A stretch of DNA of 33,705 nt from Lachnospiraceae bacterium (GTDB lineage Bacteria > Bacillota > Clostridia > Lachnospirales > Lachnospiraceae). Shown one piece after another: positions 4,862 to 31,513 of this stretch. Location of the stretch: positions 1 through 33,705 of the forward strand of contig JAGACB010000114.1 of assembly GCA_017614345.1 (NCBI GenBank), written 5' to 3'. The notes beneath the pieces were generated by a model. That model searched no databases and was not told where the DNA came from. It saw nothing but the letters and a program-made list of their open reading frames with translations. A program made the translations under genes and the position numbers. Positions within the stretch are counted from its first letter, which is position 1. Each line of letters opens with the position of its first letter.

Positions 4862-6943
4862 TCATCTCTTGCGATAGATGTCAAATGCAAGGTAACCTGT
4901 GCAAGCCAGGGACAGTCCGCCGAGGATAAACAGGATCATTGCAAATACAGTGTTCTTGTTCTCGATACCGAGTACAACGGTCTGAGAAGAACCGTTAACA
5001 ACGGGGATGGAGATGGAAGAACCAAGGGTGCTGGAAGCCTGAACTACGTTATCGTTCATAACCTTAACAGCGGTAACGGGCTGAGCGGGAACATACTCTT
5101 CAGGCTGCTCAATAACAACAACCTTGTATTCGCCGTCAGGAAGTTCTGTAGAGGAAGCCTTACCTTCTTCATCGGTCTTGATGATCTCTACAACTTTGCC
5201 CTTGTTATCGATGATCTCAACTGCAACGTCTGCAACGCCTTCATTGTTCTCATCAACAACGTCGATCACTACAACGGAAGCAACACCTGCCTCAGCTTCG
5301 GTGGTTTCTTCCGGAACTGCTTCTGTTTCTGCTTCGGGAGCAACTTCTGCTTCGGTCTCAGCCTCGGTAACAACTTCAGCCTCGGTCTCAGCTTCGGTTT
5401 CTTCTTCGGTCTCTTCGATGGGAGCTACGATAATGAACTCGGTAGTCTCTTCTGTAGGAGCCTCAGTGGGAGCTACGGTAGGCGCTTCTGTAGGAGCCTC
5501 GGTAGGAGCCTCGGTAGGAGCCTCGGTAGGAGCTTCTGTAGGTGCCTCAGTAGGAGCCTCGGTAGGAGCTTCTGTAGGTGCCTCGGTAGGAGCTTCTGTA
5601 GGTGCCTCGGTGGGAGCCTCGGTAGGAGCTTCTGTAGGTGCCTCTGTGGGAGCCTCGGTAGGAGCTTCTGTAGGTGCCTCGGTAGGTGCCTCTGTGGGAG
5701 CCTCGGTGGGAGCTTCTGTAGGTGCCTCGGTAGGAGCCTCAGTCTCTTCCTCAGTCTCTTCCTCTGTAGGAGCTACATAAATGAACTCGGTAGTTTCTTC
5801 AGTGGTTTCGATCTCGGTAGGTGCTTCGGTAGGAGCCTCGGTTGTCTCAACCTCAGTGGGCTTTTCAACGGGCTTCAGTGCAACTACGTCCATTCTGTGG
5901 GACTCTCCGCCGCTGTGAACAATGCTGCTTCCTACAACGGTACCGTTAAGGGATGCAACATTTACCTGAGCACCGGGAGCAAGGATGGAACCGAATCCGG
6001 AAGTAGAGAAGGAAACTGTTCCTGTATAAACCTTGTCAGCTGCAGAGCTGTCGTAGATGTTGTAGATCAGACGGAGGGAGCCGTAAGCTTCGGAACCCAT
6101 CTCGTTCTTTACATAGCTCTGACCGTTGCGGTCAAATGCTTCCTGATCGGAAGGAGCCAGTTCGATGCTTTCCTGACCTGCTGCATCAATGTTGATGACA
6201 ACAACGCCGGAGTTTGCGGTATTGGAATCAAGACCCTTCAGAACCAGTCTGGAAGAATACTTGGACCAGTCAGCATAGCTGATGTTTACGTAAGAATTCT
6301 CATTTACTGCTGCACCGGAGAAATCGATGTAGCGGTTGTTCTGATCCTCAACCAGGCTGTAAGTGATGGTCTCGGAATCCTTCTGTACAGAATATGTAGC
6401 AGAAAGCTTCTCCAGCTTGCCGAACTCTGCGGAAAGATCAATGTAAGGAGCACCGACCTTCTCGAAAAGAACGGTCTTTACATGGTCAAGATAGAACTGA
6501 TTGCCGTTTGCATCAGCCAGAACCTTCTGTCCTGCCTCACCGTTCTTGCCGGAGATGAGCTTGTAGCTGCTGTCTACAACCAGTGTGTCTGAGTTGGAAG
6601 AGGTTGCGATGCTGTAGATCGCACTTCCTACATAAGTTGTTTCCTGAAGATTGAATCTTTCTCTGGAGCCGAACTCTGCTACTCCGTAGAAAGTCTCAGC
6701 TGCGATGTTTCCGTGAGTGTGAACGTTAGACGTTACATTGTTCTTGGCGAACAGATGGAAATGAGTTGCTGCACCTAAGGGATCGCTTACGTTGTATACG
6801 TAGGGATCTGCGGTGAACGCGTCATCTGCCTTCGCACCCTGAAGGGTGACACCTGATACGATCAGACCTGCTGAAAGTGCCAGGGAAGAAAACATTGCTA
6901 CTTTCTTTCTTACCTTAAAGTTGGTATTCATTCTTGATGCCAT
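4862..6943 (-). CDS. Large surface protein: choice-of-anchor-A domain, TEAP repeat stalk, Cna_B/SpaA-like domain, C-terminal membrane anchor
   Basis: The 693-residue product has a basic N-terminus with a signal peptide (residues about 15-40 from this start). An N-terminal domain with DPLGAATHFHLF and NVHTHGNIAAE matches the choice-of-anchor-A pattern. A Thr/Glu-rich stretch follows, then about 24 tandem TEAP units and a prealbumin-like Cna_B/SpaA domain (DVVDENNEGVADVAVEI to LPDGEYKVVVI). It ends in a hydrophobic helix (MILFILGGLSLACTGYLAF) and RKR. No canonical LPxTG sortase motif precedes the helix, so retention is probably by the helix itself. ATG 6943 is chosen because GGAGGAGG lies 6 nt upstream; an upstream in-frame ATG at 6979 has no such site. 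Likely role: adhesion or cell-surface display (inference). Confidence 0.85.
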   Translation of the reverse strand: MASRMNTNFKVRKKVAMFSSLALSAGLIVSGVTLQGAKADDAFTADPYVYNVSDPLGAATHFHLFAKNNVTSNVHTHGNIAAETFYGVAEFGSRERFNLQETTYVGSAIYSIATSSNSDTLVVDSSYKLISGKNGEAGQKVLADANGNQFYLDHVKTVLFEKVGAPYIDLSAEFGKLEKLSATYSVQKDSETITYSLVEDQNNRYIDFSGAAVNENSYVNISYADWSKYSSRLVLKGLDSNTANSGVVVINIDAAGQESIELAPSDQEAFDRNGQSYVKNEMGSEAYGSLRLIYNIYDSSAADKVYTGTVSFSTSGFGSILAPGAQVNVASLNGTVVGSSIVHSGGESHRMDVVALKPVEKPTEVETTEAPTEAPTEIETTEETTEFIYVAPTEEETEEETEAPTEAPTEAPTEAPTEAPTEAPTEAPTEAPTEAPTEAPTEAPTEAPTEAPTEAPTEAPTEAPTEAPTEAPTEAPTEAPTEAPTEAPTVAPTEAPTEETTEFIIVAPIEETEEETEAETEAEVVTEAETEAEVAPEAETEAVPEETTEAEAGVASVVVIDVVDENNEGVADVAVEIIDNKGKVVEIIKTDEEGKASSTELPDGEYKVVVIEQPEEYVPAQPVTAVKVMNDNVVQASSTLGSSISIPVVNGSSQTVVLGIENKNTVFAMILFILGGLSLACTGYLAFDIYRKR
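5452..5741 (-). repeat. 12-bp in-frame tandem repeat encoding TEAP
   Basis: About 24 consecutive 12-bp units encode Thr-Glu-Ala-Pro. Synonymous variants cycle in a higher-order pattern (GCCTCGGTAGGA, GCTTCTGTAGGT and similar on the plus strand), pointing to amplification in 24- and 36-bp blocks. Length changes of whole units keep the frame, so the stalk length could vary between strains. One unit near the C-terminal end reads TVAP. Confidence 0.9.
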
Positions 6944-10745: not shown

Positions 10746-12263
10746 TTATTTAGCGTCTGCGGGTTTGATCTTTGCAAGATCCTGAACGTACAGCGGATAG
10801 AAGGTGTAGCCTGTGTACTTCTTGTTCAGGGCTACAAACTCTGCCATATCCTGAATGTAAACGTTGGCTGCCGTATCGGCAAGGATCTTCTCACATTCCT
10901 TGTATGCTGCGGTCTTCTCGGCATCATCTGTGGTTTTGATGGCACGGGCATAAGCCGCATCATAGTCTGCATTGTTGTAATTGATGAAGTTGTTTCCTGC
11001 ATCGGATACAAATCTGGAAAGCAGAGCCGGTGCAGTTAAGGTGGAAGCGTCCACACCGATCACGGTAGAGGTGAACTGGCGACCGGTGTAAACATCGCTG
11101 AGCCAGGTTGCCCATTCTACCTTCTGGATCTCGGCAGTAACACCGATCTCCTTGTACTGCTCCTTCAGAACCAGAGCGGTATCAATGTGGGGCTGATAGT
11201 TGGAAGGAACGGTAATGGTGAAGGTAAATCCGTCCTCATAGCCTGCTTCCTTCAAAAGAGCCTTAGCCTTTTCGATATCCTTGGGATAGGTGTTGCTCAG
11301 GTCGGTGTAGTACTTACCGAAAGCCGGGAACATACTGGAACCGATGGGAGTTCCCTTTCCGTCAGAGGTCATATCCAGGATAGCCTTCACATCCGTTGCA
11401 TAGCAGAGTGCCTGACGCACGCGGACATCATCGAAGGGCTTCTCTGCGTTGTTCAGGTACAGAGCCTGAACCAGGTTCATGGTTCCTTCATAGACCGTGA
11501 AGTCACCGGAAAGCTGGCTTACCTGGTCTGCGGAAAGTCTTGCGAAGAAATCGATGGAACCGCCGTTTAATGCGGTTACAATGGAGTCGCCGTCGGCAAT
11601 GATCTTGATGGTCACATCCGTGATATAAGCCTTTTCGCCCCAGTAGTCTTCATTTTTCTTAAGGACAACCTGCTCTAAGGGAGTCCAGGATACGTACTTG
11701 TAAGGGCCTGTACCGATGGCATTCTTCTCCGGCTCCTTATTGGATGCCGGGATAATGGCGGTGGTCAGGTTCGCCAGGAACTCCGTATCCGGGTTCTCAA
11801 GGTTAACGGTGACTGTCTTAGCATCTTTTACATCGACACTCTTAATATTGGAAAACGCCGGTACCAATGGAGCAGAATCACCATCGGACGCGGCGCAACG
11901 ATCGAGAGAATATTTCACATCCTCTGCCGTTACCGCACTTCCGTCATGGAACTTCACACCGTCACGAAGAGTAAAGGTGTAGCTGGAGCCATCCTCACTG
12001 GGGGATACTTCCGAGGCAACTGCAGGGACCAGATTTCCGTCGCTATCCACTTTCACCAGGCCTTCATAGATGTTGAAGAGAATCTCCTTTGTTCCTGCCG
12101 CTACTGCCTTATGAGGGTCAAGACTGTCGAGATCCTGGGGGATACCGATCGTAATCGAGGAAGAAGCTTTTCCGTCCTTGTCGCCTGAGGTACAACCGGT
12201 GGTAAGACCGCTCAGTGCAATAGTAAGAGTCATCAACACACAAGCGAAACGCTTTAATTTCAT
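10746..12263 (-). CDS. Solute-binding lipoprotein of a peptide-type ABC importer (SBP_bac_5)
   Basis: Extracytoplasmic binding protein that captures the substrate and delivers it to the two permeases. Residues 1-24 form a lipoprotein signal with lipobox LTTGC, so the mature protein is lipid-anchored at Cys24. The mature part carries the family hallmarks: IGIPQDLDSLDPHKA at the start, VPAVASEVSPSEDGSSYTFTLRDGVKFHDG with AVTAEDVKYSLDR, and FDDVRVRQALCYATD. The 505-residue length is typical of family 5 binding proteins (oligopeptides, dipeptides, nickel or heme-type ligands); which one cannot be decided here. AAAGGAAG lies 8 nt before the ATG. It is the first gene of the operon, with a clear promoter 75 bp upstream. 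Confidence 0.95.
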   Translation of the reverse strand: MKLKRFACVLMTLTIALSGLTTGCTSGDKDGKASSSITIGIPQDLDSLDPHKAVAAGTKEILFNIYEGLVKVDSDGNLVPAVASEVSPSEDGSSYTFTLRDGVKFHDGSAVTAEDVKYSLDRCAASDGDSAPLVPAFSNIKSVDVKDAKTVTVNLENPDTEFLANLTTAIIPASNKEPEKNAIGTGPYKYVSWTPLEQVVLKKNEDYWGEKAYITDVTIKIIADGDSIVTALNGGSIDFFARLSADQVSQLSGDFTVYEGTMNLVQALYLNNAEKPFDDVRVRQALCYATDVKAILDMTSDGKGTPIGSSMFPAFGKYYTDLSNTYPKDIEKAKALLKEAGYEDGFTFTITVPSNYQPHIDTALVLKEQYKEIGVTAEIQKVEWATWLSDVYTGRQFTSTVIGVDASTLTAPALLSRFVSDAGNNFINYNNADYDAAYARAIKTTDDAEKTAAYKECEKILADTAANVYIQDMAEFVALNKKYTGYTFYPLYVQDLAKIKPADAK

Positions 12264-12366: not shown

Positions 12367-12397
12367 TAATATTTGGTATTTTTTTGAGAACATTTTA

Positions 12398-12483
12398 GTT
12401 GCAGATGCTTCGCATCTGCAACAATCGCTGATAATGTGCAACATTATCAGCGCAATTCGTTTGACACGCATAGCGTGGCAAAC
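12398..12483 (-). repeat. Triple-hairpin element, copy 1
   Basis: Three successive stem-loops: GTTGCAGATGC/GCATCTGCAAC (12398-12422), CGCTGATAATGT/ACATTATCAGCG (12426-12452) and GTTTGACACGC/GCGTGGCAAAC (12459-12483), each with a 3-nt loop. The outer parts of the stems match the element at 30358-30452 but in reversed order, so the two copies are in opposite orientation. It sits between the divergent transporter operon and the VTC-domain gene, upstream of both promoters. Confidence 0.85.
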
Positions 12484-12573
12484 TATTCCTTTGTATCACA
12501 TTTTATACAACATTTTAACAATACTTTCATGAATTCGAGCAATAATTCAAGTGCATTTCGCAAAAAATTGTTA

Positions 12574-12612: not shown

Positions 12613-13335
12613 ATGGCAGATCAGAATATTCTGACGTTCAAACGGATCGAGAAGAAATACATGATCCGGCCGGAGATCTATGAAGAGCTCCGAAGGAGAA
12701 TGGAGCCTTATATGCAGGTGGATGAATACGGACTCTCCACCATTGCCAATATCTATTATGATACCGACAACTTCGATCTGATCCGGACCTCCCTGGAGAA
12801 GCCCGTTTATAAAGAGAAGCTTCGCTTAAGGAGTTACGGAACTCCCAAGGACAAGACCAAGGTCTTTGTGGAGATCAAGAAGAAATATGACGGTGTGGTT
12901 TACAAGAGAAGAGTGAAAATGCCTCTGCAGACCGCCGTACATTTTCTCGAAGAAGGGATCTATCCCTCCGAGGAGGATTGTCAGATCCTTCATGAGATCG
13001 ATTATTTCTTAAAATACTATCACCCGAAGCCCAAGCTGATGCTGGCCTATGACCGCATAGCCATGTTCGGGAAGCAGGACCCGTCCTTCCGACTGACCTT
13101 CGATGAGAAGATCCGTTCGAGATGGCACGACTTAGACCTGCGCCACGGGACCGACGGAGTGGAGCTTCTACCTCCCGGAACCCATCTGATGGAAGTCAAG
13201 ATCAACGGCGCCATGCCCCTCTGGCTCTCTTCCATCCTGACAGACCTTGAAATCTATCCCGTATCATTTTCCAAATACGGGGAGATCTATAAATTAAAAT
13301 GTTCTAATAATAACCAGGGAGGTGCTAAGTCATGA
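12613..13335 (+). CDS. VTC-domain (polyphosphate polymerase-like) protein
   Basis: Member of the triphosphate tunnel metalloenzyme fold related to the catalytic domain of the yeast vacuolar transporter chaperone. The tunnel residues are visible: RIEKKYMI near the start, YYDTDN, KLRLRSYG, VEIKKKYDGVVYKRR, YDRIAM, FDEKIRSR and LMEVKI. In the yeast enzyme such basic and acidic residues bind ATP, polyphosphate and metal. In bacteria the activity is mostly unproven. Length is 240 residues with no membrane helix. ATG 12613 is chosen because AAAGGAGG lies 8 nt upstream; a GTG at 12589 is the only earlier option. It overlaps the next gene by 4 nt (ATGA), so the two proteins are probably made together. 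Confidence 0.9.
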   Translation: MADQNILTFKRIEKKYMIRPEIYEELRRRMEPYMQVDEYGLSTIANIYYDTDNFDLIRTSLEKPVYKEKLRLRSYGTPKDKTKVFVEIKKKYDGVVYKRRVKMPLQTAVHFLEEGIYPSEEDCQILHEIDYFLKYYHPKPKLMLAYDRIAMFGKQDPSFRLTFDEKIRSRWHDLDLRHGTDGVELLPPGTHLMEVKINGAMPLWLSSILTDLEIYPVSFSKYGEIYKLKCSNNNQGGAKS

Positions 13336-27123: not shown

Positions 27124-27145
27124 ATCTGTTTCCTTTCTGCGTAAA

Positions 27146-27320
27146 TGTGTATTTGGGGACGGTTCCGAAAAACACAAAAATGTGTATTTGGGGACGGTTC
27201 TGAAAAACACAAAAATGTGTATTTGGGGACGGTTCTGAAAAACACAAAAATGTGTATTTGGGGACGGTTCTGAAAAACACAAAAATGTGTTTTTTGGAAC
27301 CGTCCCTGAAAACACGCTGA
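27146..27320. repeat. Tandem 35-bp GGGGACGGTTC repeat with inverted end
   Basis: Four units start at 27146, 27181, 27216 and 27251, each TGTGTATTTGGGGACGGTTC then TGAAAAACACAAAAA (one CGAAAAACAC). They are followed from 27286 by TGTGTTTTTTGGAACCGTCC, the inverse of the unit core, so the last unit and this end form a long hairpin with GGGACGGTTC/GAACCGTCCC and AAAAACACA/TGTGTTTTT stems. It fills the gap between the SUKH-like and DUF4003 genes. Confidence 0.9.
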
Positions 27321-27329
27321 AAACACGTT

Positions 27330-28358
27330 TTACTTTCCCGAAGTATTCGACGAAACAACCTCAGTAACTGCAGGTGCAACATTCAGTGCGATCTGAACCG
27401 CTACGGAGATAGCCTGGATCACCTTCCGGGTAGTGAGGATCGAAATGGTATTGCTGATGACGGGGTTACTGATCACATCTGTATCCTTGCCACAGGCATC
27501 TGCCACCAGGAAGATCGAATACATCAGTCTCTGTTTGTTGGAGATATCCTTATCGGTAAATACTTTCTTCTCCTTCAGATAGTCGGCAACTTCGATGATC
27601 TCGGTAACGATCTCTTCGGGGCTCAGATCGATATCTACTAAAGCACCGAGTGCGGAAAATGCCTGATCTTCATTATAGGAAGACTTGCGTTTCTTAAACT
27701 CTGCCGAGATCCGGGCTGCACGGTCGCACTTGGACTTCATATCTCCGTAAGTGACTGCAAGCACCTCACAGAGACCCTGGATCGCATTCGAATCAACACC
27801 CATTTTGTAGGTGGACTTCAGATACTCATAGCCCTCTTCCAGATCCTTAAGGATCGTATCAACATCTTTATAAGAAAGAGCAAGGAGCATTACATAGGAT
27901 GTATCTCCGGAGGATGTCAGGATCGGGTGTTCCTGCTCCATACGGTCCATGATCTCCTTTGCCTTGGCAATAATCACATCCGCATCGCCCTGCATCCCGA
28001 GGTCGCAGATCAGAAGACCGGACAGGATCAGATAGGAATTATTCTTGAACTTTGCTTCCTGTGCCTTCTCGCAGATTGTCTGAAGATCATGAAAATACTG
28101 CTCGGGATCCTCAGAGAGCGACATTTTACTGGTGATCACAAGCTCTGTTTCAGCCCTCATATTTGAGAAAAAGCCGGTCTGACTTTTCAGGATCTTCCGG
28201 CACTCAGCCATCTTCTCCGTATCCACTTCCTTTCCGGCTGCGGTGAACAGAAGTCCCTCCACCACCAGCATCAGGTCGTTCTCAAGGGGATGTTCCTTGC
28301 TGAGCTTCGCACGGTTTTTTTCGAGTAGTCCGCATTTTTCTTTTACAAGATCATTCAT
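27330..28358 (-). CDS. DUF4003 family protein
   Basis: 342 residues, soluble and mainly helical. The pattern LMLVVEGLLFTAAGKEVDTEKMAECRKILKSQTGFFSNMRAETELVIT, then LQTICEKAQEAKFKNNSYLILSGLLI, VIIAKAKEIMDRMEQEHPILTSSGDTSYVMLLAL and ALGALVDIDLSPEEIVTEI, matches the DUF4003 layout (paired helices with a recurrent hydrophobic register). The family has no established function; it is common in Firmicutes near stress or envelope genes. ATG 28358 is chosen because GAAAGGAC lies 9 nt upstream; the longer frame to 28427 runs into the upstream repeat and lacks a site. The gaps on both sides hold GGGGACGGTTC repeats. Confidence 0.8.
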   Translation of the reverse strand: MNDLVKEKCGLLEKNRAKLSKEHPLENDLMLVVEGLLFTAAGKEVDTEKMAECRKILKSQTGFFSNMRAETELVITSKMSLSEDPEQYFHDLQTICEKAQEAKFKNNSYLILSGLLICDLGMQGDADVIIAKAKEIMDRMEQEHPILTSSGDTSYVMLLALSYKDVDTILKDLEEGYEYLKSTYKMGVDSNAIQGLCEVLAVTYGDMKSKCDRAARISAEFKKRKSSYNEDQAFSALGALVDIDLSPEEIVTEIIEVADYLKEKKVFTDKDISNKQRLMYSIFLVADACGKDTDVISNPVISNTISILTTRKVIQAISVAVQIALNVAPAVTEVVSSNTSGK

Positions 28359-28385: not shown

Positions 28386-28453
28386 GATGACATGGGGACA
28401 GATGACAAAAGAACCGTCCCCTGTCATCTCGTTGCAGGTCTTTGTCCTGCAAC
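28386..28453. repeat. GGGGACGGTTC-type hairpin pair
   Basis: First hairpin: GATGACA-T-GGGGAC (28386-28399) pairs with GTCCCCTGTCATC (28416-28428), with TGACAAAAGAACC in the loop. Second hairpin: GTTGCAGG (28431-28438) and CCTGCAAC (28446-28453). The core shares GGGGACGGTTC (minus strand) with the 27146 array, and the second hairpin resembles the GTTGCAGAT stem of the triple-hairpin elements. Confidence 0.8.
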
Positions 28454-29364: not shown

Positions 29365-30327
29365 TCAAGCCTGCAGGGCCAGATCGTACCAGTCTTCTAC
29401 CTGTGAAACAACCCACTCAAGAGCACGACGACGCTCGATGACGCAGGAAGGATTCAGATTGCCGATCTCGGCATCCTGATTTGCTCTTGCCTCATAGATG
29501 GCCCAGGTATAACGGAAGTAAAGATCAAGCATGTCAAGGATCTCAGCCTTGTCACGAAGGGCGCCTTTTTCTGCCAGTTCGCCGTCACGGGCGATCTCGA
29601 TGGCACGTTCACAGTCGCAGGTATCGCCGGCATCCTTGATGTCATCCACAAGACCCAGGCACCAGCAAAGAGCCCAGTAGCTTTCATAAGCCCAGTCCAT
29701 ATCGATGGCATCCTGCATGGTATAGGAACCGTCTACGATCCGGCGCTCCTTGGAATTCAGATACTCCATGGCACCCATTTCCCCCAGCATAGGACCGAAA
29801 AACTCCATACTCTCCTTGTAATTGTCCTGGGCGATATCGCATGCAATCTGGATCACGGGGAACATCACCATAGCTCTCTTACGGATAATGCCCTCGTCAA
29901 GCAGTTCATCGTTCTCGTCATCCCAGCGTGTCATGAGATGCTCCGCTGTGGTGATACCGTTTTCCGTAAGGTAACGATTATTCTTCTCGCGGCGTTCCTT
30001 CTGAGCGGGCGTCTCCGGAAGCTCATCACTCTGAAGGCAGGGATGCTGTTCCTCCATGTACTGCATTACCCCGAAGTAGCGCTCATCATCCAGATCCAGG
30101 AACTGAAGTTTATCATCCTGCACTGCAAAATAGAACACCTTCTCGGGAACCTCCACCCGAAGAAGCGCCTCGATCTTCCCGTCATCCCGGGAAAATACAT
30201 ACGCAAAATGAACCTCCAGACCGGAAAGCTCATCCTCCGTCAGCAGCTGATTGTCCAGCAGTCCCCCCACCGATGCATTCACGATGGCATTTTTGATCTG
30301 ATTGTTGTACTTCTGATTCTGTTCCAT
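29365..30327 (-). CDS. DUF4272 family protein
   Basis: 320 residues, soluble. The C-terminal two-thirds carries the DUF4272 features: RKRAMVMFPVIQIAC, the Trp-rich YESYWALCWCLGLV, CDCERAIEIA, LRDKAEILDMLDLYFRYTWAIYEARANQ and the final PSCVIERRRALEWV. The N-terminal 100 residues look like a separate beta-rich module. The family has no proven function; it occurs next to SUKH and other accessory genes in some Firmicutes, which agrees with the cluster here. AAAGGAG lies 7 nt before the ATG. A triple-hairpin repeat ends 30 bp upstream of the start, so any promoter lies beyond or within that repeat. Confidence 0.88.
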   Translation of the reverse strand: MEQNQKYNNQIKNAIVNASVGGLLDNQLLTEDELSGLEVHFAYVFSRDDGKIEALLRVEVPEKVFYFAVQDDKLQFLDLDDERYFGVMQYMEEQHPCLQSDELPETPAQKERREKNNRYLTENGITTAEHLMTRWDDENDELLDEGIIRKRAMVMFPVIQIACDIAQDNYKESMEFFGPMLGEMGAMEYLNSKERRIVDGSYTMQDAIDMDWAYESYWALCWCLGLVDDIKDAGDTCDCERAIEIARDGELAEKGALRDKAEILDMLDLYFRYTWAIYEARANQDAEIGNLNPSCVIERRRALEWVVSQVEDWYDLALQA

Positions 30328-30357
30328 GTTCCTTCTCCTTTTTTTATTGTGGTAATT

Positions 30358-30452
30358 GTTTGACTGCTATGCAGTCAAACCGATGATAATGCATGCATTA
30401 TCATCGATTGTTGCAGATTTAAGATCTGCGTTGCAGACCTTAAATCTGCAAC
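30358..30452 (+). repeat. Triple-hairpin element, copy 2
   Basis: Hairpin A: GTTTGACTGC/GCAGTCAAAC with loop TAT (30358-30380). Hairpin B: a perfect 26-bp palindrome CGATGATAATGCA/TGCATTATCATCG (30381-30406). Hairpin C: GTTGCAGATTTAAG/CTTAAATCTGCAAC (30410-30452) enclosing an inner TCTGC/GCAGA stem. Order, loops and outer stems match copy 1 read on its minus strand; inner stems differ but stay paired. Confidence 0.9.
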
Positions 30453-30502
30453 TAAATTGTAATCCCCTCCGGGAAAATCAATTCGTGTTTAAGCCGGTAC
30501 GA

Positions 30503-31513
30503 TCACCGCAGTTCCAAGGTACTTGATGCATAATACCGGAAGCCGTGGGCCTCGGTATATTCGCGAATGGCGTCGATCAGCTCCGGATCCGTGGTATATT
30601 CCAAAAGGAAAATGTCCCCGCCGGATGCGGATACCTTCTCGATGTATTCCTGAAAGTACTCCCTCTCACCGGCGTCATTTTTCGAAAAGCGGTTTCCGTC
30701 CCACTCGATCTTGCTGAAGACAGTCTCCTGATTCACGGCATCCGCGATCTCTCGAAACTCACCGCCCCGGTCCAGATACTCGTACACATAGGAGTCTCCG
30801 CCGTTGATCGAAACGTAGGTATCCAGGCTCTTGAAGCCGTGAAGAATGTCTGTGAGGCCGTTATAGATCTCCTCGGTATGGCGAATGTAATAGACGTCCG
30901 TATTGTCCACGAACAGGCCGTCCACGCCCTTCCCCAGGATCTCCGGCGCCAGCCTGTTCAAAAGAAAGTCCTGCCATTCCCTGCTTGAAACATCGATCCA
31001 CCGTTCCTCGTCCCAGTGCTCGTACTTGGCAATGGTCAGATCCACGTAATCATCGTAGTACGGGCGGAAATTCTCGATGGAGCCGACATTGATGTAGCTG
31101 TAGACCGTCTTTCCCTCCGCATGAAGCTTTGCGATCTGTTCCTCAGAATAGTATTGGGCATCGATCACAAGAATATCGTAGCCCTGTTTCTTCATCACAT
31201 CATCCGGTTCTGCGCCGAGGAAGACTCCATAGGATGTGCCTGAAGGAGAGAGCGTTTTTGTTTCCTGCGCTTCCTCGGGTTCTTTGGTTTCTTCGATTAT
31301 TTCTGTTTTTTCGGTTTTTTCTGTTACTTCTGTTTCTTGTTTTTCTCCGGATTCTTCGGATTGTGATTCAGATCTTTCTATTTCATTATTCGACAATCCG
31401 CCGGTGTCAGTATTTCCCTGAAATTTCTGAAAAAGATAAACGGACGTCGCAATCCCAAAACAGAGAGCAACTGCCAAAACCGCCATCAGAATGATCATTC
31501 TTTGATTCTTCAT
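30503..31513 (-). CDS. Glycoside hydrolase family 114-like exported protein
   Basis: 336 residues with an N-terminal signal anchor (about 6-28), a Ser/Glu/Thr-rich linker to about residue 85 (many TEKTE and EETKEPEE units), and a TIM-barrel domain. The barrel has YGVFLGAEPD, YDILVIDAQYYSEEQIAKL, KTVYSYINVGSIENFRPYY, WIDVSSREWQDFLLNRLAP and VDGLFVDNTDVYY, the pattern of the GH114/endo-alpha-1,4-polygalactosaminidase superfamily. The likely acid residues are in VIDAQ and FVDNTD. Target: galactosaminogalactan-like or other surface glycans (inference from family). ATG 31513 is preceded by GAGGA that overlaps the kinase stop (8-nt gap), so it is read with the two-component genes. Confidence 0.85.
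   Translation of the reverse strand: MKNQRMIILMAVLAVALCFGIATSVYLFQKFQGNTDTGGLSNNEIERSESQSEESGEKQETEVTEKTEKTEIIEETKEPEEAQETKTLSPSGTSYGVFLGAEPDDVMKKQGYDILVIDAQYYSEEQIAKLHAEGKTVYSYINVGSIENFRPYYDDYVDLTIAKYEHWDEERWIDVSSREWQDFLLNRLAPEILGKGVDGLFVDNTDVYYIRHTEEIYNGLTDILHGFKSLDTYVSINGGDSYVYEYLDRGGEFREIADAVNQETVFSKIEWDGNRFSKNDAGEREYFQEYIEKVSASGGDIFLLEYTTDPELIDAIREYTEAHGFRYYASSTLELR

Follow-up and report, generated by a model that had tools for sequence, protein, structure and literature searches.

A composite REP-like DNA hairpin element dispersed between the genes of a Clostridia-type bacterium

Introduction

The described repeats closest to the element reported here include the mitochondrial double-hairpin elements, which are mobile tandem hairpins of organelles; the BOX elements of Streptococcus pneumoniae, short modular intergenic repeats of a Gram-positive bacterium that have no transposase of their own; and the REPINs, each composed of two inverted copies of the same REP. 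For the REPs themselves, TnpA_REP of Escherichia coli cuts at a CT beside the hairpin, whose upper stem serves it as structure without sequence specificity (PMC8266576), and GTAG REPs lie near the 3' ends of ORFs, for which they often supply TAG stop codons (PMC3733652).

Here, we describe an element of 91 bases that forms three hairpins and is dispersed in about 80 copies between the genes of one Clostridia-type bacterium. Two of these copies lie in the window, by which we mean the whole stretch of DNA analyzed, 33 705 nt. The family, which has no match in the collections searched, is a real, composite, REP-like DNA hairpin element with unusually fast concerted turnover of its arms and precise placement at gene borders. 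On balance, we lean toward reading it as a non-autonomous mobile repeat of the single-strand-hairpin kind, moved in trans, probably by a Y1 (HUH) enzyme, with arms that are matched by concerted change through template switching.

The window copies and their family

Copy 1 belongs to subtype A, in which a linker is present, and occupies 12397..12489 on the minus strand, as judged from the covariance model (97 bits, E 1.2e-16), folding and alignment. It lies in the spacer of two divergent genes, encoding an SBP_bac_5 protein (10746-12263, minus) and a VTC-domain protein (12613-13335, plus). Read on the minus strand, it begins with the 5' box GGAATA (12484..12489), which becomes GGAATAG with the first stem base and is near-invariant across subtype A. 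There follow hairpin 1 (12459..12483; GTTTGCCACGC TAT GCGTGTCAAAC), with a conserved base GTTTG/CAAAC and a variable apical part, the 6-nt linker GAATTG (12453..12458; consensus GGNTTG), hairpin 2 (12426..12452; CGCTGATAATGT TGC ACATTATCAGCG), the trinucleotide ATT, hairpin 3 (12398..12422; GTTGCAGATGC GAA GCATCTGCAAC) and a terminal T that completes the CT end.

Copy 2, at 30352..30453 on the plus strand (67.1 bits, E 1.9e-10), represents subtype B, with the 5' box GTAATTG and no linker. It is antisense to both neighbors: a DUF4272 gene (29365-30327, minus) has its start 24 bp away, and a GH114-domain gene (30503-31513, minus) its stop 49 bp away. Apart from the missing linker its parts follow the order of copy 1, likewise on the plus strand: hairpin 1 (30358..30380; GTTTGACTGC TAT GCAGTCAAAC), hairpin 2 (30381..30406; CGATGATAATGCATGCATTATCATCG) and, in place of a single hairpin 3, a nested or fused double hairpin (30410..30452; GTTGCAGATTTAAG..ATCTGC GTT GCAGA..CTTAAATCTGCAAC).

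Both copies fold as three hairpins each, with z = -7.8 for copy 1 and -10.2 for copy 2 relative to dinucleotide shuffles, none of which folded as well. The initial annotation had placed a triple hairpin at these two sites in opposite orientations, with the loop TAT in hairpin 1, common stem bases and inner halves that differ yet stay paired, and in all of this it was correct; the exact borders are those given above. It needs correction in that the copies are of different subtypes: copy 2 lacks the linker of copy 1, and its hairpin 3 is double. Elsewhere in the window, 4862-6943 (minus) encodes what is probably a surface protein, with a long tract of TEAP repeats and a C-terminal end resembling a membrane anchor.

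A similarity search with copy 1 as query found 43 matches in its own genome, and a covariance model built from 39 copies found 88, which come to 84 non-redundant copies once palindromes found on both strands are merged. The initial annotation had proposed such a model and search, and had held that a lack of further copies would count against it; further copies proved plentiful. All three hairpins are at least 70% Watson–Crick paired in 71 of the 83 copies of the model alignment. Most copies are of subtype A, with GGAATAG and the 6-nt linker; subtype B has a GAAATTG-like box, and the linker is empty in 13 copies. Both orientations occur, as do several head-to-tail tandems (e.g. C105:1/97, C129:17344/17441 and C91:9977/10068). 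A short conserved box, ATAG or ATTG, precedes each hairpin (GGAATAG, containing ATAG, ahead of hairpin 1 and CGATTG ahead of hairpin 3), the order is fixed, and the end is CT. Over these diverged copies the boxes and stem bases are constant, the apical arms are free, and the loops are unconserved. Chimeric or shortened copies were seen at C98:1055-1216 (L020) and C129:167-238 (L117), where the next element replaces hairpin 3 or hairpin 2 is fused into hairpin 3.

The genome is a draft of 260 contigs with 2% estimated contamination. The contig end C21:1-104 (L017) and the start of C129 (L117) share element sequence, inverted and 98–100% identical, which suggests that the repeats break the assembly.

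Outside its own genome the element had no match in 60 genomes of relatives from other genera, nor in 397 genomes of the family and 392 of the order (the last two ∼790 together; the sets overlap, and each includes the own genome). The family and order searches scored 10–11 candidates per genome, every one of which, in the own genome, was a true copy. Searches of plasmids, phages and viral contigs likewise gave no match. One weak match (L080; E 0.002, with a poor hairpin 1), among 11 loci from a GTDB pattern scan, was judged to be chance because the locus had been picked by the pattern itself.

Covariation and turnover of the arms

The main test of covariation used an alignment made without reference to structure (A1; MAFFT, 39 copies); in a second, larger one (A2) the structure had guided the fit. 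In A1, 94.6% of the cells are paired and 23 of the 33 pairs have two-sided changes. Cells with double changes number 198, compared to 57 in shuffles and 12–28 when the partner is slid by 1–3 columns; none of 500 shuffles reached the observed level.

Had the pairing been kept in a structured RNA, G-U would be expected to exceed A-C on the transcribed strand. Leaving out two columns with inherited subfamily mismatches, we counted 16 G-T against 18 A-C mismatches in sense copies and 24 against 32 in antisense copies. G-T is thus no commoner than A-C in either orientation, there is no RNA wobble signature, and we conclude that pairing is maintained at the DNA rather than the RNA level. Covariation here is therefore no proof of selection on RNA. 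Rfam gave no gathering-level match in the window, and permissive thresholds brought up only chance matches far below threshold. With neither an Rfam match nor favored G-U wobble on the transcribed strand, identity with an RNA family was rejected.

The arms are nearly unique to each copy: 83 copies hold 78, 76 and 76 distinct sequences of hairpins 1, 2 and 3, respectively. Distances in the three hairpins are uncorrelated (Mantel r 0.02, 0.08 and 0.08; not significant), indicating independent variation. Shuffling of whole hairpins between copies was rejected as the main process: few hairpins are identical (6, 8 and 9 pairs), and copies that share one remain closer than background in their other parts.

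In the closest copy pairs ∼65% of the changed base pairs are already two-sided, a share that grows little with distance, and in the counted columns of the C129 tandem two pairs have changed two-sidedly and none one-sidedly, plus one loop base. Two overlapping contig ends, with copies at C163:88 and C207:27553, match at 100% identity across 85 bp to one side and at 92% across 101 bp to the other; these copies have the boxes and the linker GGGTTA in common, and 10 pairs differ two-sidedly and one one-sidedly. Over C163:1-280 and C207:27465-27744 (L091 and L098), the flanks are near-identical and the arms differ in all three hairpins. The two may be strain variants of one locus, that is, a strain polymorphism, or else a duplicated locus. 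Arm change here is faster than flank change, a contrast that partly reflects constraint since the flanks are largely coding.

Template switching, a one-step process known both to generate hairpins and to preserve them (PMC8794818), fits the two-sided arm changes; very strong selection for pairing is the alternative. The initial annotation had taken the covarying stems as the mark of selection on structure. That view is upheld only in part: recent duplicates too (C129 and C163/C207) differ on both arms at once, so the matching of the arms may owe as much to template-switch mutation as to selection.

Taken to its limit, this argument would make the covariation wholly mutational, with template switching homogenizing palindromes that have neither function nor current mobility. 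The two-sided share in even the closest copies, hardly rising with distance, and the pace of arm relative to flank change in C163/C207 both speak for such a process, yet mutation alone does not explain boxes and stem bases that stay constant while the copies diverge, and dispersal to unrelated sites needs a mover; we regard this explanation as improbable. We give similarly little credence to an enzyme-linked process, in which hairpin-templated repair after single-strand cleavage would rewrite both arms with the boxes fixed, and the same machinery would insert precisely into stop codons. If true, the element would generate ever-new palindromes, different at each locus.

Placement relative to genes

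Genes were called with a simple codon-usage caller written for this analysis, which within the window agrees with the long open reading frames; by this caller, no copy lies inside a gene. Where both neighbors are known (n = 72), they are co-directional for 62 copies, divergent for 8 and convergent for 2. The next gene is antisense in 46 copies and sense in 31.

In 20 of the 46 copies with an antisense neighbor, where the gene lies at the hairpin-3 end, the element overlaps the stop codon by 2 nt (11 copies) or 1 nt (9 copies), so that its terminal AG completes TAG, TAA or TGA (T|AG in 11 copies, TA|A in 8 and TG|A in 1). Among the 41 copies with a measurable spacer, 18 overlap a stop, compared to 2.35 expected under a simple null model of uniform insertion in the spacer, or 4.4 with the ribosome-binding site protected. 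The proteins encoded at stop-codon copies are not visibly truncated: at overlapping copies, the alignments of IMPDH and an ABC permease with solved structures stop no more than a few residues short of the protein ends, and both proteins keep native C-termini; for an orotidine decarboxylase, with 3 nt between its stop and the element, the alignment extends to residue 230 of 232. In this way selfish DNA might enter dense operons without harming genes.

Sense copies also have a preferred position, just upstream of the ribosome-binding site: 18 of 31 lie 10–28 nt ahead of the next start codon, where 8.3 would be expected. This spacing, and the preponderance of co-directional neighbors (62 of 72), would suit a structured RNA, either a cis-regulatory leader or an element for intercistronic processing or stability, above all where copies are sense. 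The lack of any G-U excess in either orientation tells against it, however, as do the excess of antisense over sense copies, the unconserved loops and the lack of an Rfam match; moreover, a promoter-like sequence, noted by eye, lies between copy 1 and its downstream gene, and the downstream genes have no common function (RecO, RNase J, homoserine dehydrogenase, threonine synthase, a Clp-type ATPase and a PEP synthase-like protein). We therefore find an RNA role rather unlikely. The initial annotation had likewise preferred a mobile or structural element to a leader switch, and this preference is upheld by dozens of dispersed copies in both orientations, in spacers beside unrelated housekeeping genes.

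Copies have no flanking homology with each other except in tandem duplicates and overlapping contig ends, and each therefore looks like an independent insertion; such dispersal to unrelated sites would imply mobility, as far as sequence comparison can tell. The 5' flank is A-rich, with A at -1 in 54 of 71 copies. No target duplication was found, as no k-mer duplication stood clearly above shuffled flanks.

Two further explanations bear on this distribution. A DNA-level structural or protein-binding site (for a nucleoid protein, gyrase or a cruciform binder), selected at gene borders and spread by ordinary duplication, would be in keeping with the strand symmetry of the palindromes, the positions in operon spacers and at gene borders, and the constant boxes. 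Ordinary duplication sits poorly with the independent-looking flanks, and absence from the ∼790 other genomes of the family and order would be odd for a housekeeping site; we hold this to be unlikely, though not negligibly so. The second, a MITE of a DDE-type insertion sequence, would agree with an element that is short, dispersed, non-coding and intergenic, but the ends GGAATAG and CTGCAACT are not terminal inverted repeats, target duplication is lacking, and the families listed for 112 neighboring proteins include no transposase. The MITE class, lacking both of its hallmarks here, was rejected, and we consider an origin of this kind very improbable.

Candidate enzymes and a second repeat family

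The initial annotation had suggested looking for a linked transposase. None adjoins the copies among the Pfam families listed (25 of 193) from a scan of the 112 neighbor proteins, the listed families being housekeeping ones. Two Y1 transposases are encoded in the genome. One is an IS605-like TnpA, at a locus that by eye also appears to include a divergent tnpB-like frame; the other, a RAYT-like protein, scores above the family cut-off for Y1_Tnp and, at 46 bits, below it for REP_Tyr_transpos. Derivation of the element from IS200/IS605 by internal deletion was rejected, as the resident IS605-like locus (L044) gave no model match.

The RAYT-like gene (C64:16900), the sole one in the genome, has a palindromic repeat of another family on its flanks, with loop GAACCGTCCCC, and was thus rejected as the obvious partner; the element is absent from its 3.3-kb locus, where in a 260-contig draft a copy could be missing. 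Relatives without the element also carry RAYT-like genes, a further point against the REP-like mobile reading. These genes have flanking palindromic repeats of their own, with the core GGGGACGG in two of three examined (L147 and L150, from G004 and G010) and GGGACATGTCC in the third (L149, from G015).

The family that flanks the RAYT-like gene on C64 also forms arrays, at 27130-27330 and 28398-28430 of the window and at L045/L154, with a period of 35, a stem of TGTGTTTTT/AAAAACACA or GTGAC/GTCAC and the loop CAGAACCGTCCCC. Hairpin 3 occurs alone as well: GTTGCAG..CTGCAAC has 81 occurrences in the genome and a reversed-pattern control has none. Of 25 solo units inspected, ∼15 lie inside or against the second repeat, typically as TGTGTCAAT-[hairpin 3]-TGATCCGTCCCC, and the window has one beside this family (GTTGCAGGTCTTTGTCCTGCAAC; 28431..28453, plus). 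Solo units occupy a similar place in the second-repeat loop, and others are nested in the hairpin-1 loop of three-hairpin copies (sites of the two kinds are C145:7047, C18:12189, C30:4175, C124:8370 and C130:10749, or L143, L128, L130, L141 and L142, together with C29:945, C258:26934 and C1:4477). Since hairpin 3 within the second repeat mixes parts of two families, shared machinery for the two is plausible, judging from these sequences.

A mobile REP-like repeat could work as follows. An HUH/Y1 enzyme, either the resident RAYT-like protein or one that has been lost or is unassembled, would act in trans, recognizing box and lower stem as a single-strand hairpin, cutting at the terminal CT and then inserting the single strand. 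The upper stem would be recognized by shape only, which would leave its sequence free to change. Template switching during replication would copy one arm onto the other and so keep the arms matched, with selection against non-folding copies as a further safeguard.

Comparison with known repeats

The element family offers about 80 parallel natural experiments in the evolution of DNA palindromes, with constant boxes, free arms and both sides changing together, and makes the choice between selection and template switching directly testable. It also cautions that strong covariation need not imply a functional RNA and, as a composite form in Clostridia, widens the range of REP-like repeats.

REPs tagged by GTAG or CGTC, which are thought to be mobilized by TnpA_REP/RAYT, are likewise DNA hairpins that occur in high copy between genes and have a short, unpaired 5' box (PMC3733652, PMC8266576). 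Our element resembles them in its number of mainly intergenic palindromic copies (84, non-redundant), its position near ORF 3' ends that its own ends supply with stops (20 of 46 antisense-neighbor copies), the CT at its 3' edge, and a conserved lower stem below an upper stem that is structural only. It differs in combining three different hairpins of like orientation into a fixed unit of 91 bp, in arms almost unique to each copy, and in having been found in one Clostridia-type species only. Two differences count against the REP-like mobile reading itself: the tag has other letters at a similar position, ATAG or ATTG (ATAG; CGATTG) rather than an unpaired GTAG or CGTC tetranucleotide, and no cognate RAYT gene is flanked by the element, the sole RAYT-like gene having the GAACCGTCCCC repeats. 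On these two grounds we rate the element a REP-like variant and not a REP.

Like REPINs and BIMEs, the element is a composite unit of several palindromes, but its three hairpins are unrelated and stand in direct order. The mitochondrial double-hairpin elements differ in being organellar, in having two hairpins and in showing no stop-codon placement. BOX elements, likened here by description, have different modules but are similarly short, modular and intergenic, in a Gram-positive host and with no transposase of their own.
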